From Candidatus Paceibacter sp. (GTDB lineage: Bacteria; Patescibacteriota; Patescibacteriia; Magasanikbacterales; UBA922), in assembly GCA_020725175.1 (NCBI GenBank), contig DYFM01000012.1, positions 1 to 39,325 on the forward strand: a stretch of DNA of 39,325 bases, written 5' to 3'. Shown here in pieces: positions 16,616 through 39,325 of this stretch (position 1 is its first letter; every line of letters begins with the position of its first letter). A program made the translations under genes and the position numbers. A model generated the notes under the pieces. It saw nothing but the letters and a program-made list of their open reading frames with translations. It was not told where the DNA came from and did not search any database.

Positions 16616-17470
16616 ATGCAAAATCTACAACATATGAATACTCTCAAAAAGATGATTGCCGGTGTGACAATCGTGGCAGTGGCTATCTCAATGACGCTCG
16701 TACTTGGTATGCAACAAGCGTCTGCCGCGACTCTACAAAACAATACGTCCGGATCCGTTTCCGGAACACAAGGCGGCACTTCGCTCGGTGAGTTAATCGT
16801 TCTCCAAGAAATTTTTCAGGATGGACAGGGTACTGATCAAAACACTTCTTTTTCTGATCTGGGAGAATTGATTGTGCTCAACAATTTGTTTAGTGGACAG
16901 AATGGACTATTTAGTTCTGGTGGTCAGTCTGGTTCATCTACGAGCGGACAAACTTCTCTTGGCGAACTCATCGTATTACAGAGTATTTTTGGAGACGGTG
17001 AACAACAAGCGATGAATGGAGCGACCGATGGTACAACGGATACAAATCAAGAAAATCAAGGTACCTTTTCTGATTTAGGAGAATTGATCGTTCTCAACAA
17101 TCTGTTTAGTGGTTCCTCTGTTTTTGGATCCGGCCAACAAACAGTAATAGTAGAACGAGGGGACACACTAGCCGGTATCGCTGAAACGTATCTTGGTGAC
17201 GCAAGTCGTTGGCCAGAAATTGCCGCAATGAATAATATTTCAAACCCGCGCAATCTTCAGATAGGTCAGCGATTGGTATTGCCAAGTAGTCAAACAACCG
17301 GTAGTGGAATGATGAGTGGGCAAACTAATCTTGGAGAATTGATAGTCTTACAGGGAATATTTGATAGTGAAGGACAAAATGGCGGTGGTGGACTAGGTAA
17401 CTTCTCAGAACTCGGAGAACTTATTATTCTAAACAACTTGTTTAGTAATGGACAAGGTGGTCTCTTCTAA
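16616..17470 (+). CDS. Secreted LysM-domain protein with six LGELI[VI]L[QN] repeats
   Basis: Signal peptide ending ASA; LysM VERGDTLAGIAETYLGDASRWPEIAAMN; repeated LGELIVLQxIF / LGELIVLNNLF. Confidence 0.85.
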   Translation: MQNLQHMNTLKKMIAGVTIVAVAISMTLVLGMQQASAATLQNNTSGSVSGTQGGTSLGELIVLQEIFQDGQGTDQNTSFSDLGELIVLNNLFSGQNGLFSSGGQSGSSTSGQTSLGELIVLQSIFGDGEQQAMNGATDGTTDTNQENQGTFSDLGELIVLNNLFSGSSVFGSGQQTVIVERGDTLAGIAETYLGDASRWPEIAAMNNISNPRNLQIGQRLVLPSSQTTGSGMMSGQTNLGELIVLQGIFDSEGQNGGGGLGNFSELGELIILNNLFSNGQGGLF

Positions 17471-17490
17471 CTCTTTTGAGAGTAGATTCC

Positions 17491-17522
17491 AAAACACCCA
17501 TCAGGAGAGATGGGTGTTTTCT
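17491..17522. terminator. Terminator hairpin
   Basis: aaaacacccatc-aggaga-gatgggtgtttt. Confidence 0.75.
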
Positions 17523-17540
17523 GTATTGGAATCTAGCATG

Positions 17541-18797
17541 TTATTTATTTAGGGCGTTGGTCTTTACCGTCACCACAGACATGCCTTGTTTTAGGAGTTC
17601 TCTTCGCAATCCTTCTTCATGCTTTGCGCCGTATTGCAAAACTAGAACTGATTCACTGGTCTGTTCCAATAGTTTTCGGGCATTTTCAGCGGTTTCCTTA
17701 TTTCGTTGTTCGAGTACGAGCGCCTTTATCTCTTGTTCGTTTTTGGTAAGAAGCTCTTGGAGTTGTTTCGCGGAAGAGAGAGACGCGTACGGATTGTTAG
17801 CACGACTCGGAGCGCTCTGCTGCCTGGTTGGTACGGAAGTATTTTCTTGTACTTTGGCAAGAGAGATAAAATGGTCAAGCGCTTTTTTTAGTTTCAGATC
17901 TTTCGTCTTCTCGGTAAATATGACGAGAGACGGAGCAGGTTTGGAAATATGTTTCAGGTACTGTTGCAACAATTGCTCTTGAGTATTTTGACTTAGAAAC
18001 GACTGTCCAAGTGATGATGTGTGAGGTGTTTGCTGGCGCACTTGTGCCAAACGATCTTGAAGATATAGATGTTCTCGCACTAATATTCGACTTTTCTCCA
18101 TGGTGGTAGGCTGTTCCGCTCCGGTATACACAATTGGTGTATTTGGGTTGGTGTTCATGAGATATGGTGCGCCAAGAAGGAGAAGTTCTCGTTCGGATCT
18201 GCGGAGTTCTTTATCAAGTTCTTTTTGAATAGTATGAACTTCTGTTGATGAGTAAGGTGATTGTTGGAGCGCTTGTGTTACTTGTGCGCTGGCGGCAATC
18301 ATTTGTTCGTGGACAGATAGTTTTTTTTGAATTGCGCGCAATTTTTGTCCCTCAACCGGCCCCTCCATTTCTCCTTCCAACATGACAAGCCGAAGAGGTG
18401 TGGAGGCGGTGATAGTGTTCAGAACTTGAAGGGTTTCACGTTGCTGCTGTTCCGCTTGGTTATTGGTTGCGTCATGTGAATCCGTACCGGGAGTAATATG
18501 AATCTGTGGAAAAAATAAGACGGTTTTTTGGCTACCTGGCACCAAGTCAAATTGAATGTCTTGAATAGGGAGTGATGAAACAACTGCCTGTTCATTGAGG
18601 AGGATGGAAAGTGATGTTTGAGGATTCGTCTCAAGAGCAGTTTTATTGTTCTGAGGATGAAGTGATAAAAGAGAGGACTCTTTTGGTAACAGTACCTGAG
18701 ACGTACCGATAATGGAAAGAACGGTAAGTCCAAATACAGTTGTTTTTACTCGATGTTTCTTAAGAAAAGAACCAAGAATGTGTAAAGAAAAAGGCAT
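17541..18797 (-). CDS. Secreted hypothetical, possible TraB/ChaN (TIKI)-like fold
   Basis: N-terminal TM/signal; FFPQIHITPG, LVMLEGEMEGP, VYTGAEQP motifs. Confidence 0.55.
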   Translation of the reverse strand: MPFSLHILGSFLKKHRVKTTVFGLTVLSIIGTSQVLLPKESSLLSLHPQNNKTALETNPQTSLSILLNEQAVVSSLPIQDIQFDLVPGSQKTVLFFPQIHITPGTDSHDATNNQAEQQQRETLQVLNTITASTPLRLVMLEGEMEGPVEGQKLRAIQKKLSVHEQMIAASAQVTQALQQSPYSSTEVHTIQKELDKELRRSERELLLLGAPYLMNTNPNTPIVYTGAEQPTTMEKSRILVREHLYLQDRLAQVRQQTPHTSSLGQSFLSQNTQEQLLQQYLKHISKPAPSLVIFTEKTKDLKLKKALDHFISLAKVQENTSVPTRQQSAPSRANNPYASLSSAKQLQELLTKNEQEIKALVLEQRNKETAENARKLLEQTSESVLVLQYGAKHEEGLRRELLKQGMSVVTVKTNALNK

Positions 18798-22450: not shown

Positions 22451-22573
22451 AATACAAAAAAGCATTAAAACATGAAAGCAAGAAAGCAAATGAACTATGC
22501 ACAATGGTCTGCAGTATATGCCGCAAGTCTTGTTTTTATGCTTTACTGCTTTTATGTTTTTATGGCGATAGTG

Positions 22574-22964
22574 TGGAGATGCCGGGACTTGAACCCGGGT
22601 CTAGACGTGTTGACTTTATGATCTTCATGTGTAGTATTCTTTGGTGTTTTGGTAGATCGGTCAAAAGAACACAAAAGCCGATGTACCTAGCTTCAGAAGG
22701 GTTCGAAATCATGAGTGAAGCGCCCGTAATTTCTACACTCGATGGGTTGACACCGCCTGATTCCTATCGAGTATCAGAGAGGCGATGGCTGTCGCGCTTA
22801 GGCGACGGCAGGTGCGAATGAAGGCATTGCAAATGCGTTGGCAAATGCAGTCTTCACGCGACTTACTAAGTTTGCACTTAGGGATTGTCTCGGATTTACG
22901 AGGAGAGACACCTCGACATGCACACAAAGACAACAGAATTCGCCTATCGAAGCCTGTCATCCCC
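22574..22964 (-). ncRNA. ssrA: tmRNA (SsrA); tag ORF 22875->22798 encodes ANLVSRVKTAFANAFAMPSFAPAVA*
   Basis: 5' GGGGATG pairs 3' CATCTCC; T-arm GGGTTCAAGTCCC; resume codon GCA; next to smpB. Confidence 0.93.
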
Positions 22965-31710: not shown

Positions 31711-32274
31711 ATGAAAAAACTGCCAAGAGGACGGCAGGTGGCGGTAGCGGGCGGAGTACTCGCCGTCGCTACCCTGGTCGTCCTCATCGTGGCGGTCGGC
31801 TATTATGCCGTGAAGACGGTAGACATGGCCGACCGCCTCACCCGCCTCGAGCTCAGAGATGGGCTCGAGGCGGACGGCCGGCTGGCGGCCGTGGACGCCA
31901 GCACCGAACAACTGTTTCTGGAGGGGGCCGTCGCCCGCATGGAAGCGCGGCGGCTGTCCACCCTCCTCGCGGAGCATAGCGCTGAACTCGCTATGCTCCG
32001 CACCACGAAAACCGAGCTTGCCCGGCTTCGTGAAGAAGTCGGGCAGCTCATGAGCGAGGTGGAGGTGCTCAGTCTGCTCGTGCTGAGCCCACCACCGGCA
32101 GATTCGTCGCCCTCCGCCGGTCCTGCGCGCCGTTCATTCGGCGTGCGGGCGGAGGGGGGTGTGGTCCTCATTTTCCGGTCCCGAGCCGAGGCCGAAAAGG
32201 CCATCGAGCTCGGGGCCGTTGAAGTCGCCGGGGAGAGCTTGCTCGTGCTCTCCCCGGAAGTACTCAGTTGGTAG
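31711..32274 (+). CDS. GC-island 1 gene A: TM plus coiled-coil protein, unknown
   Basis: SD ggaggtgac before ATG; TM VAVAGGVLAVATLVVLIVAVGYYAV; coding region made of consecutive hairpins. Confidence 0.8.
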   Translation: MKKLPRGRQVAVAGGVLAVATLVVLIVAVGYYAVKTVDMADRLTRLELRDGLEADGRLAAVDASTEQLFLEGAVARMEARRLSTLLAEHSAELAMLRTTKTELARLREEVGQLMSEVEVLSLLVLSPPPADSSPSAGPARRSFGVRAEGGVVLIFRSRAEAEKAIELGAVEVAGESLLVLSPEVLSW

Positions 32275-32327
32275 ACAACCGCCGGCGGTTTGGGCACGGT
32301 GCTTGGGCCGCTGGCAAGGAGGGTGAA

Positions 32328-33347
32328 GTGAGTTCGAAAAAACAGGCGGCGACCATCAGGCTCCTCCTGGTGGTCGCGCTCCTGGTCCCGGTTTCGGCCC
32401 CGGGACAGGAGCTGGCGTCGGACCTTCCGACGCCGATCGACGTGGTGCCGGTCCCGAAGTACATCGGGCCGTGTCCGCTCCAAGCGGACGCGGTTCAGTA
32501 CATCTGGACCGGCGAGGCTGGTGAAGAGGTGCCGGCCGGCTTCGAGCCGAAATGCCCGGCTGGCACGATTCCTGGGGTGGTGGGTACTGCCGACCACCAC
32601 CCTCGCGCCCGTGAGGGGCAGGACCTCCTCGATTCACTCGGGCGGGCAGCGAAAGTTGCTCCGCCCGGGTGGACGGGTGAGTGGTGTGGTTTGGGACCCA
32701 CACCGATCCTGTCCCGAGGCAAGCCGGTGGCGGCGGTGGCGTGTGTCACGCTGCCGCCGTTACCTGAACCAGGCCCCCCTGGCCCGCCCGGACTGCCCGG
32801 GCAGCCGGCCGAGCCAGGTCAGCCCGGACCAGCGGGCGACCCGGCTCCGGCCGGGGCACTCAGCGTCGGTGCGACGACGCGAGTGCTCGGCATCGGGGGG
32901 CAACAGTTGTTTCTAGCTGGAGTGAGGGGGCGGTGGGCCATACCGCTCCGCTACGGCCAGGAATTCGCCGTTCAACTCTTTATCGACGGTGGGGGAAGCC
33001 TCGCCGACGAAATGGAGTGGACGGCGGCGATGACGACCGGGGGCGGTGTGGAGTACCGTCCGTGGAATTTCCTTGGCGTGACTGCCGAGGGGTTTTACGG
33101 GCGGTCGAGCTGGCACATGTTTGGTGGGTGGTTCCGGCAGTTTGCCGGGGCCACCGCCGGGCTTGATGCCCGCCCCATCGCCCTCGGGGGGACCCAGAAC
33201 GCTTTTTGGCGAGACTTCCTCTCCCTTCGGGGAGGGGTCGGGATCGCCGAGGTCTGGTTCCCCGGCGGCATCAACTCCGACACCGTCATGGTGTGGGAGT
33301 TCGGTGCCGCGTTGATGTTCCGGTTTGGCGGCGAAAAGAGTAAGTAG
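32328..33347 (+). CDS. GC-island 1 gene B: secreted 4-Cys / collagen-like / beta-rich protein
   Basis: SD aggagggtga before GTG 32328; signal peptide; PKYIGPCP..CPAGTIPGVVGTADHHP..WCG; GPPGPPGLPGQPAEPGQPGPAG. Confidence 0.85.
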   Translation: MSSKKQAATIRLLLVVALLVPVSAPGQELASDLPTPIDVVPVPKYIGPCPLQADAVQYIWTGEAGEEVPAGFEPKCPAGTIPGVVGTADHHPRAREGQDLLDSLGRAAKVAPPGWTGEWCGLGPTPILSRGKPVAAVACVTLPPLPEPGPPGPPGLPGQPAEPGQPGPAGDPAPAGALSVGATTRVLGIGGQQLFLAGVRGRWAIPLRYGQEFAVQLFIDGGGSLADEMEWTAAMTTGGGVEYRPWNFLGVTAEGFYGRSSWHMFGGWFRQFAGATAGLDARPIALGGTQNAFWRDFLSLRGGVGIAEVWFPGGINSDTVMVWEFGAALMFRFGGEKSK

Positions 33348-33374
33348 TCGCCAACCGGAACTCAGACGCCCCAT

Positions 33375-33450
33375 GCTCTGCCGGGGCAAATATGGCAGAG
33401 CTACCCACGACGTCCGGGAAACGTGGACGTAGGGGTGTGGGCACGATGAG
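33375..33450 (+). other. Structured GC-rich 3' region of island 1
   Basis: gctctgcc/ggcagagc (33375-33401), acgtcc/ggacgt, gggcac/gtgccc stems. Confidence 0.55.
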
Positions 33451-33511
33451 CTTTCTCTTAGTGCCCCCTTCAACAATCTTTCTTAATTTGATGGAGAGAG
33501 TGCTGAGGGAA

Positions 33512-33540
33512 AAAAATTCACACCTCTTAACGAGGTGTGA
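33512..33540 (-). terminator. Terminator-like hairpin for reverse-strand transcription
   Basis: Reverse strand ttcacacctcgttaagaggtgtgaattttttt. Confidence 0.65.
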
Positions 33541-33553
33541 AGTTGTTTAGAGG

Positions 33554-33833
33554 TGTAAGAATTAACAGCGTTGTATAAACTTTTGAATCCCAATAAACAT
33601 AAACAGGTGCACCAATTGCTCTTGAAAGTATTTCATATAACAAAGTCTTTTCTTCATAATTACTCCCGAAAGATATTACGATTTTTGGCCTCGCGAGGCC
33701 AAAAATCGTAATATTATTTCGCAAAATTGTGTCCGTAAATGTTTGACAGAGCATTAAAGTATCTAAAGCAATTGTTTCACTAAGTGCTTTCATGTAATTT
33801 TAAAAAGTATATACAACGCTGTTAATTCTTACA
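33554..33833. mobile_element. 280-bp element with 24-bp perfect terminal inverted repeats and a 42-bp perfect central palindrome; nature uncertain
   Basis: TGTAAGAATTAACAGCGTTGTATA at 33554-33577 and its exact reverse complement at 33810-33833; palindrome 33673-33714. Confidence 0.55.
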
Positions 33834-33852
33834 GATAAGATCAAAAATAATT

Positions 33853-36148: not shown

Positions 36149-36177
36149 TTGACAAAAAGTAAAAAATGTGCTAAAAT
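36149..36177 (+). promoter_or_regulatory. Putative promoter of GC island 2
   Basis: TTGACA-N17-TAAAAT. Confidence 0.65.
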
Positions 36178-36208
36178 ATGTAGTCATTTGTCAGCTTTTT
36201 TGTATAAG

Positions 36209-36260
36209 TTGTGGCTCATATTGTTTTCTTTTATGTAAAAGAAAACAATATGGCCCACAA
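36209..36260 (+). promoter_or_regulatory. Long AT-rich hairpin containing the start codon (ATG 36250) of GC-island 2 gene
   Basis: ttgtggctcatattgttttctttt-atgt-aaaagaaaacaatatggcccacaa; 23 of 24 positions pair (one G-T, one C-C mismatch). Confidence 0.9.
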
Positions 36261-37305
36261 GCCATTCCCCGCCGCAGGGCGGGGGACCACTGTTTTTACG
36301 GTGGTCCTGATCCTCGCCATTGTGGCGGGGATCCTTTGCCCGGCCACGGTGGCTGGGCAAGAAACTTCCGCAGGGCTGACCCAGCCTGCGGCGGCTGAGG
36401 TGGTCAATCAGACCCCTCAGCCGAAATTCATCGGCGCCTGCCCCACCCAGGGCGGCGGCGTCGAGTGGATCTGGGTTGGCCGGCGGGGGAGCGTCCCTCC
36501 CGCCGGTCAGTTCCAGTGCCCCGAGGGGACCATCCCCGGGGTAGTTGGAACCGCCGATGCCCACCCGGAGGGTCGTGGTGGGCAGGACGATCTTGACGGC
36601 GCGCGGGCCAGCGCCGTCGCCCCGACCAACTGGGATGGTCGGTGGTGCGGGGTCTCTGCCACGGCAGTAGACTCCGCTGGTCCGGGGTCGGCAGCGATTG
36701 CCTGCATCGCTGCCCCCCCCTCCCCTAAGTCGCTGAAAGGCGACAAGGGGGAGAAAGGCGAACCAGGAGAGCCTGGTCGCGACGGGATCGACGGTGAGAG
36801 CATCGTCGGTCCCGCAGGTCCGCCCGGGGCGAGCATGGTGCTCGCCCCCTTCACCGGCGCGGCGGCCGGTGGAGACGCTGACGGCCGACTCTTCGTTTCG
36901 GCGAAGATCGGTCTCGAACTCCGTCTGGAGCAGTTCGTGCTCGAGGCGGAGGTCAGCGGGGCACACGCCCCCGAGGGATCCCTGGACCGTCGCTGGTCCG
37001 GGGAGGTGACGGCGCGCATCGGTGGCGCCGTTCACCGGTCACTCGACCTCCTGGCCGTTGGGAAATTCGGCCAGGAGTCGTTTGACCCCCTCGGGGGGTG
37101 GATGCGGCGCAGCTGGGGAGCTGGCGCCGCGGTGGACTTCCGTCCACTGGCGCTCGTCTCGGAGCGTTGGTGGGCGGAGGTGTTGGAGGTTCACCTCCAG
37201 GCGGTCGGCGGCCAGGAATGGCAGCCAGGAGACCTCCTGGAGGACGCCCGCCCCACCTTCGGGTGGGAAGCGGGTGTGAACCTCCGTTTCCCGATCGGCC
37301 TGTAA
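36250..37305 (+). CDS. GC-island 2 gene: secreted 4-Cys / collagen-like / beta-rich protein, paralog of 32328-33347
   Basis: Signal peptide; PKFIGACP..CPEGTIPGVVGTADAHP..WCG; KGDKGEKGEPGEPGRDGIDGE. Confidence 0.85.
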   Translation: MAHKPFPAAGRGTTVFTVVLILAIVAGILCPATVAGQETSAGLTQPAAAEVVNQTPQPKFIGACPTQGGGVEWIWVGRRGSVPPAGQFQCPEGTIPGVVGTADAHPEGRGGQDDLDGARASAVAPTNWDGRWCGVSATAVDSAGPGSAAIACIAAPPSPKSLKGDKGEKGEPGEPGRDGIDGESIVGPAGPPGASMVLAPFTGAAAGGDADGRLFVSAKIGLELRLEQFVLEAEVSGAHAPEGSLDRRWSGEVTARIGGAVHRSLDLLAVGKFGQESFDPLGGWMRRSWGAGAAVDFRPLALVSERWWAEVLEVHLQAVGGQEWQPGDLLEDARPTFGWEAGVNLRFPIGL

Positions 37306-37329
37306 AAGGGTCGGCCGGGACACCTGAGG

Positions 37330-37550
37330 GAGCTTGTCTGCCCCTCTATCCAAAAACCCCGCCATTCGAGAATGGCGGGGACAGACAGCTACGGGCCTTC
37401 TCTCCTTCGGCCCTCAGCACCAGCTGAAAATGAAGGGGACGGCGCGCGTCTAGCCGTAAGGACGCAAAAATGGGCCCCGACGAAGGTCGTCGGGGTAGGG
37501 GGAGCTGGGTGAGGCGGCGGTGATCAGACTCGATCAGCCGCCTCGCCCCC
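37330..37550 (+). ncRNA. Structured GC-rich region downstream of island 2 gene (3' UTR or ncRNA)
   Basis: Stems 37357-37380, 37475-37495 and a 17-bp stem 37507-37548. Confidence 0.55.
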
Positions 37551-37608
37551 AACACAGTCTTCCGATGCAGGTTTGTATAGGGAGAGTGGGTTGGTGGGAT
37601 GAGTAAAA

Positions 37609-37647
37609 AAATAAAAAACTTCATCAATATGATGAAGTTTTTTATTT
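37609..37647. terminator. Bidirectional terminator hairpin
   Basis: aaataaaaaacttcatc-aatat-gatgaagttttttattt. Confidence 0.8.
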
Positions 37648-37666
37648 CCTTTGTGAATATCAGGGA

Positions 37667-39163: not shown

Positions 39164-39192
39164 TTGACAGAAAGTCAATACTATGCTATACT
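39164..39192 (+). promoter_or_regulatory. Putative promoter of a third GC-rich island
   Basis: TTGACA-N17-TATACT. Confidence 0.65.
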
Positions 39193-39237
39193 ATGTTGTT
39201 TTACGGTTAATGATTCGTTCTTGTACAATTTATTTTT

Positions 39238-39325
39238 CGCTTGCACATCATTTTTTCTTTAGGTTTTTTGCCTTAACATAGGGAAAAAATGATGCGCGAG
39301 CGTCTATCCCGCCGTGAGGCGGGGG
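39238..39325 (+). other. Start of a third GC-rich hairpin-coded gene: AUG-containing AT-rich hairpin followed by GC hairpin, cut by window edge
   Basis: cgcttgcacatcattttttctt / gggaaaaaatgatgcgcgagcg stem (one mismatch), then cccgcc-gtga-ggcggg. Confidence 0.65.

Follow-up and report, generated by a model that had tools for sequence, protein, structure and literature searches.

The right edge of the window, the 39325-base stretch of DNA analysed here, which is the entire contig C23, carries the probable beginning of a third hairpin-chain gene, of which positions 39164-39325 (+) are the promoter, the leader and the first codons. By hairpin-chain gene we mean a chromosomal protein-coding gene in an island of elevated GC whose leader, codons and 3′ end are all folded into local hairpins. 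As the window spans all of contig C23, the edge at 39325 is an assembly break. A sigma-70-type promoter, TTGACA-N17-TATACT, with TG before the second hexamer, was found at 39164-39192 (+); it gave an 11/12 match with extended TG and resembles the promoter at 36149-36177, a likeness already pointed out in a previous sequence-only reading of this DNA. Downstream of it lie a start hairpin at 39238-39302 (+), which in its 3′ arm buries both ATG 39289 and ATG 39292, and a second hairpin, UCCCGCC-GUGA-GGCGGGG, closed by a GNRA loop, at 39307-39324 (+). The joint fold of the two was -45.6 kcal/mol as compared with a mean of -21.8 kcal/mol for shuffles (z -7.9), and none of 200 dinucleotide shuffles folded as well. 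The score of the first stem (20.0) was the second of the whole window, behind only 36209-36260 (20.5), and the best hairpin of each whole-window shuffle (n = 12) scored between 10.5 and 13. The reading frame 39289-39325 (+), ATG ATG CGC GAG CGT CTA TCC CGC CGT GAG GCG GGG G, encodes MMRERLSRREAG... in its first 12 codons and is open to the edge, where the contig end cuts it. The two-hairpin start module, the buried ATG codons, the GUGA-capped second stem and the promoter that had been proposed for this edge were thus all recovered, and so was the idea of a third unit (unit C) which shares its architecture with unit B, the stem sequences being unrelated.

Two complete units precede unit C in the window. 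The GC content is near 0.66-0.70 in units A (31711-33545) and B (36149-37650) as against 0.35-0.48 in the surrounding genes. Both units are flanked on either side by lower-GC chromosomal genes, and together with unit C they account in 3.4 kb for 30 of the window's 48 strongest hairpins. Unit A comprises gene A1 (31711-32274, +), encoding a membrane-anchored coiled-coil-like protein of 187 aa, gene A2 (32334-33347, +, the exact start being uncertain between 32331 and 32355), encoding a secreted collagen-like paralogue of B, and a hairpin-rich 3′ end (33348-33545, +) with a terminator-like stem at 33517-33541; both coding regions are hairpin chains. Unit B starts with the promoter TTGACA-N17-TAAAAT (36149-36177, +; 11/12 match, 17-base spacing), followed by the strongest hairpin of the window (36209-36260, +), which holds GTG 36211 and ATG 36250, and by a second hairpin, CCCCGCC-GCAG-GGCGGGG (36265-36286, +). 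Its hairpin-chain coding region (36250-37305, +; GC 0.70) specifies a secreted collagen-like protein of 351 aa, and its hairpin-rich 3′ UTR (37306-37650, +) ends with a terminator-like stem (37609-37647) common to the convergent gene. Burial of the start codon is not found in every unit, as A1 has an open GGAGG ahead of its ATG. A2 and B are 39% identical, matched the Pfam Collagen model with about 17.6 bits, below the cut-off of 27.2, and gave a joint structure prediction of low confidence (pLDDT 36). No relative of this protein family was found in 46 genomes of the family, 61 relatives or viral contigs; the sole genome-contig match, in an Omnitrophica genome (L014), was rejected as an unrelated methyltransferase-like ORF with a common WTGEWCG motif. 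Just 3′ of unit A, a MITE-like element (33559-33835) was observed whose terminal inverted repeats are 23 bp long (GTAAGAATTAACAGCGTTGTATA) and which has a palindrome at its centre (33669-33718), and a tmRNA gene lies at 22571-22964 (-).

In order to separate folding from coding, predicted energies were compared with those of synonymous-codon shuffles (z values from 12-40 shuffles). On the sense strand A1, A2 and B gave z values of -13 to -14, and the unit B coding region ranged from -13 to -17, as against -1.8 to +1.2 for seven other genes of the window. Raised folding began past the promoter and faded at the terminator-like stem. Together with two further genes of the source genome described below (C28 and L113), A1, A2 and B carried 12-20 kcal/mol per 100 nt of extra folding (z -10 to -17). 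The overall range of hairpin-chain genes was -10 to -20 kcal/mol per 100 nt in the source genome and -5 to -23 in its relatives, and most of the coding regions were 9-23 kcal/mol per 100 nt too stable. By the same method, genes of the RNA phage MS2 reached -7.4 to -10.2 kcal/mol per 100 nt. High GC alone was ruled out as the cause by 34 genes of phages Mx8 and phiC31 (GC 0.64-0.68; mean -0.25, extreme -2.2 kcal/mol per 100 nt) and by 38 Escherichia coli genes (mean -1.1, extreme -4.7), and collagen repeats alone were ruled out by the phiC31 collagen fibre gene (+0.6). Uninterrupted helices were mostly 2-12 bp and nearly all shorter than 17 bp. The GC of paired bases was about 0.75 as against 0.5 for unpaired ones, so that the stems partly explain the high GC of the islands. 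Unpaired AU-rich sites numbered 2-13 per kb as against 19-24 in ordinary genes, a scarcity that comes mostly from high GC and exceeds that of synonymous shuffles only partly.

The remainder of unit C was sought by scanning 3 kb at either end of each of the 32 remaining contigs of the source genome. Only one of these 64 ends, the left end of contig C28 (L044 1-1176), lies in such a unit, which is GC-rich and hairpin-packed with a 5′-open frame (z -12.7 to -14.4 against synonymous shuffles). Its product combines a lipoprotein-like signal with collagen and Dicty_CTDC repeats, and scored 35.2 bits against Pfam Collagen, above the cut-off of 27.2. The codons for LILAIVAG form the same hairpin in C28 and in unit B, with one C-G/G-C pair swapped. 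As a gene begins in C23 and breaks off, while one in C28 runs in the same direction and lacks its 5′ end, a join of the two contigs is the simplest reading, and the C28 left-end gene probably continues unit C across a putative C23-C28 junction that would join MMRERLSRREAG to NPLNSLSTTLRGGLRAALILAIVAG. The O-antigen ligase and glycosyltransferases beside C28 would be in loose agreement with the sugar epimerase near the C23 end. The sequence-only reading had foreseen beyond the edge a GC-rich ORF for a protein of the IGxCP...GTIPGVVGTAD...WCG type; C28 supplies a candidate for the GC-rich, open, hairpin-packed ORF but lacks the IGxCP/GTIPGVVGTAD motif, and the only copies of that protein in the assembly are the two inside the window. 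The last ordinary gene of C23 (37667-39097, -), encoding a 476-aa orphan between units B and C, is without relatives in the 46 genomes searched from the family. Several further elements were seen near the C28 unit. The 12-mer TACAACGCTGTT of the MITE-like element recurs, among the loci examined, only after this unit, and intergenic repeated palindromes of the CCGCCCAAGGCGGATCCGCCTTGGGCGG type lie at L044 1395-1620. A tRNA-Arg(gcg) and a predicted tRNA-Gly (L044 1680-1898 and 2090-2300) both have in front of them a TTGACA promoter together with a short leader or small RNA whose sequence complements parts of the tRNA concerned (CTATCTTCGCAGG; GGTAAGGCTGC), and a terminator hairpin, an arrangement that looks like anti-tRNA regulatory RNA.

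The range of the class was surveyed in contig ends and sampled stretches, covering about half of the source genome and parts of other genomes. Genome size and gene content suggest that the source organism belongs to a small-genome phylum of the Patescibacteria type. A mechanical scan of 314 ORFs in 400 kb of the source genome gave a mean z of -0.3, and its three strongest outliers were three GC-rich ORFs, namely an orphan (L113), a NUDIX-like gene (L111) and an ORF in L102, for which the scan took the strand opposite the likely gene (16918-17628). A pattern search for a promoter common to L111 and L102 matched only L111. The closed genome of a member of the same family (G027, 33% GC) contains a packed MYG1 exonuclease-family gene, a DEAH helicase and a surface-protein cluster, and an assembly artefact was ruled out by this closed genome and by the intact conserved enzymes in the islands. 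In G083, from another family of the same order, an island holds MYG1, NDK and small orphans; here two 94%-identical intergenic modules of 114 nt (L139 14963-15076 and 16249-16362) lie in gaps between hairpin-packed genes, the gap upstream of MYG1 included, and could possibly be a common leader or a cassette boundary. In other genera of the family, related genes for Cys-rich lipoproteins had a folding excess that was weaker but clear, and some GC-rich islands in relatives showed none. Samples of more remote genomes within the class or phylum also yielded GC-rich, fold-rich candidate ORFs (L233 12430-17218 in G158, L239 in G297 and L227 15857-18828 in G172), several of these outliers being without identified proteins, so that the class may range more widely and some of its members may be non-coding. 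A search of PHROGs gave matches only to collagen-type tail-fibre, NUDIX and acetyltransferase families.

The conserved enzymes revealed that the hairpin chain is a property of the island and not of the protein. MYG1 was present in two of 88 genomes of the order (G027 and G083), both copies being hairpin-packed, whereas at 11 other loci of the phylum it had ordinary neighbours, native GC and an excess of at most 4.1 kcal/mol per 100 nt, usually near zero; likewise, G083 has a normal NDK and, in addition, the hairpin-packed one. The two packed MYG1 genes, which are 47% identical, have 3.0% of their base pairs in common against a null of 2.7%, and A2 and B have 2.5% against 2.4%. Thus, orthologues and paralogues share base pairs only at the null level, indicating that hairpin content is kept and hairpin positions are not.

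As the search for stems was strand-symmetric, with G.T and A.C treated alike, the mismatches in the stems could be used to distinguish RNA from DNA as the selected molecule. Stems contained 187 G.U as against 69 A.C pairs (73%), compared with 54% in shuffles of the same sequences (p 7e-10) and a G.U share of 53.9% in the stems of ordinary genes of the source genome, and an independent replicate set gave 74 against 36 (p 0.006). UNCG or GNRA tetraloops amounted to 14 of 47 in the sense and one in the antisense direction, with 7 of 96 in shuffles; the replicate set was weaker in this respect (4 of 34 sense, one antisense). Both the excess of G.U over A.C and the sense-strand loops suggest selection on the transcribed RNA, and in hairpin-chain genes it seems to be the RNA itself that is selected, even though transcription-linked, strand-biased C to T change could account for some of the extra G.U pairs; it would not produce the tetraloops. 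It is unlikely that the structures arose at the DNA level, by template-switch (quasi-palindrome) mutation or as cruciform or single-stranded DNA signals with RNA folding as a by-product. The raised GC of the islands and the fast turnover of hairpin positions would fit such an origin, as would the strong structure of the antisense strands (z -2.5 to -12), which is unavoidable for any inverted repeat. However, G.U pairs were about 2.7-fold more frequent than A.C pairs, RNA-stable tetraloops lay on the sense strand, nearly all genes had a sense excess larger than their own antisense excess, and elevated folding set in past the promoter and faded at the terminator-like stem. REP and MITE palindromes are likewise short perfect inverted repeats, but they are repeated and intergenic, whereas each hairpin here is unique and mostly inside codons; across 118,019 genomes, perfect inverted repeats were concentrated between genes (PMC13155455). 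Integron cassette arrays carry their hairpins at the attC ends and not through the coding regions as here, and no integrase was detected among the neighbouring genes tested with Pfam.

We are highly confident that the predicted structure recurs, is biased to one strand and goes beyond what codon-preserving nulls give. As to function, we tentatively propose, giving it slightly less than an even chance, that RNA self-structure is selected as such and yields RNase-resistant, start-gated messages, with unit C likely continued by C28. According to this model, synonymous sites would shape the whole transcript into a continuous run of local hairpins, the selected property being self-structure of the sense RNA and no particular hairpin. 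The resulting compact message would expose few accessible single-stranded AU-rich stretches and might thus be left intact by ribonucleases, either cellular or freed under attack or dormancy, so that accessory proteins could be made late or over a long time. The start codon of units B and C would in addition be held within an extra-strong AU-rich stem beside a GC clamp, and initiation would need this stem to be opened by ribosome standby, a helicase or warmth; the outcome would be a stored message with gated translation. Helices that are nearly all shorter than 17 bp would limit cutting by RNase III. Such cutting of the stems could nevertheless occur, and it counts against shielding. Unpaired AU-rich stretches are the kind of site used by RNase E, and in E. 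coli more structured coding sequences go along with higher mRNA abundance (PMC4619774). The short helices, the few unpaired AU-rich sites and this relation in E. coli favour shielded, long-lived messages.

Control of translation speed, in which hairpins slow or pace the ribosomes for co-translational folding or export, appears rather improbable. Many members are indeed lipoproteins or secreted and contain repeats of the collagen-like, TSP3 or Dicty_CTDC kind, but a cytosolic location is probable for the MYG1, NDK, NUDIX and DEAH-helicase members, the untranslated ends are structured too, and the paralogues have no common positional pattern.

It is still less probable that the genes came from, or shuttle through, an RNA or single-stranded replicon such as an ssRNA-phage-like element, whose imprint the chromosomal copies keep. 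Structure at or above the MS2 level and the accessory nature of the copies (a second NDK, MYG1 outside its usual operon, mostly orphans) speak for it; as in the Leviviricetes (MS2), coding regions are laid out in dense local hairpins far beyond synonymous shuffles. Unlike those phages, however, the genes described here are chromosomal, have sigma-70-like promoters, lie in scattered short islands and are mostly more structured than MS2. The viral contigs searched contained no relatives, maturation, coat and replicase genes of the Leviviricetes were absent from the PHROGs matches, and the neighbouring proteins searched included no replicase, reverse transcriptase or capsid gene. Furthermore, A2 and B are both still packed in spite of their divergence, which implies that structure is maintained in place.

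That the edge stems merely regulate one gene, as an RNA thermometer or attenuator in its leader, is very unlikely: in units B and C the module does sit between promoter and coding region and its ATG-holding, predicted AU-rich stem resembles thermometers and ribosome-occluding leaders, but the hairpins run beyond the leader at equal density, into the coding regions of A and B and on to their 3′ ends, the stem sequences are unrelated between units, and no Rfam family matched, covariance models at gathering score finding only tRNA and tmRNA.

Selection for RNA self-structure has precedents of a different extent. In the genome-scale ordered RNA structure (GORS) of RNA viruses, folding excess is spread along the whole coding RNA, as was found here; in the papers found, GORS is a trait of viral RNA genomes, whereas the present cases are single genes of bacterial chromosomes whose neighbours have no excess. 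A weak genome-wide bias in local mRNA folding is known in bacteria (Peeri and Tuller, 2020; PMC7063772). It likewise reflects stable folding selected inside coding sequences, as judged against synonymous nulls, but is spread over the genome and modest, whereas the excess reported here is limited to a small number of genes, in most of which it reaches 9-23 kcal/mol per 100 nt. The open-access literature searched describes no class of hairpin-packed coding genes, either for this phylum or for bacteria at large, and hairpin-chain genes are apparently an undescribed bacterial gene class.

We put at about even the chance that the small-genome bacteria of this lineage, and perhaps of the wider phylum, keep a class of accessory genes with end-to-end hairpin-chain messages, in which synonymous sites carry a second layer of information selected for RNA self-structure with no fixed hairpin, and which would lend these messages the character of an RNA phage genome, be it for storage, export or RNase-proof expression. 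Hairpin-chain units may also break assemblies or sequencing, of which contig C23 appears to be an example. Known selection on folding in bacterial coding sequences is weak and genome-wide. The genes reported here are individual chromosomal ones, some of them from conserved families (MYG1, NDK, DEAH helicase), and are as structured as an RNA phage genome or more so, unlike members of these families elsewhere. This contrast amounts to a natural experiment on a cell's reasons for encoding messages in hairpins, and allows a direct test of the idea that the lifetime and translation of an mRNA are controlled by structure over its whole length.
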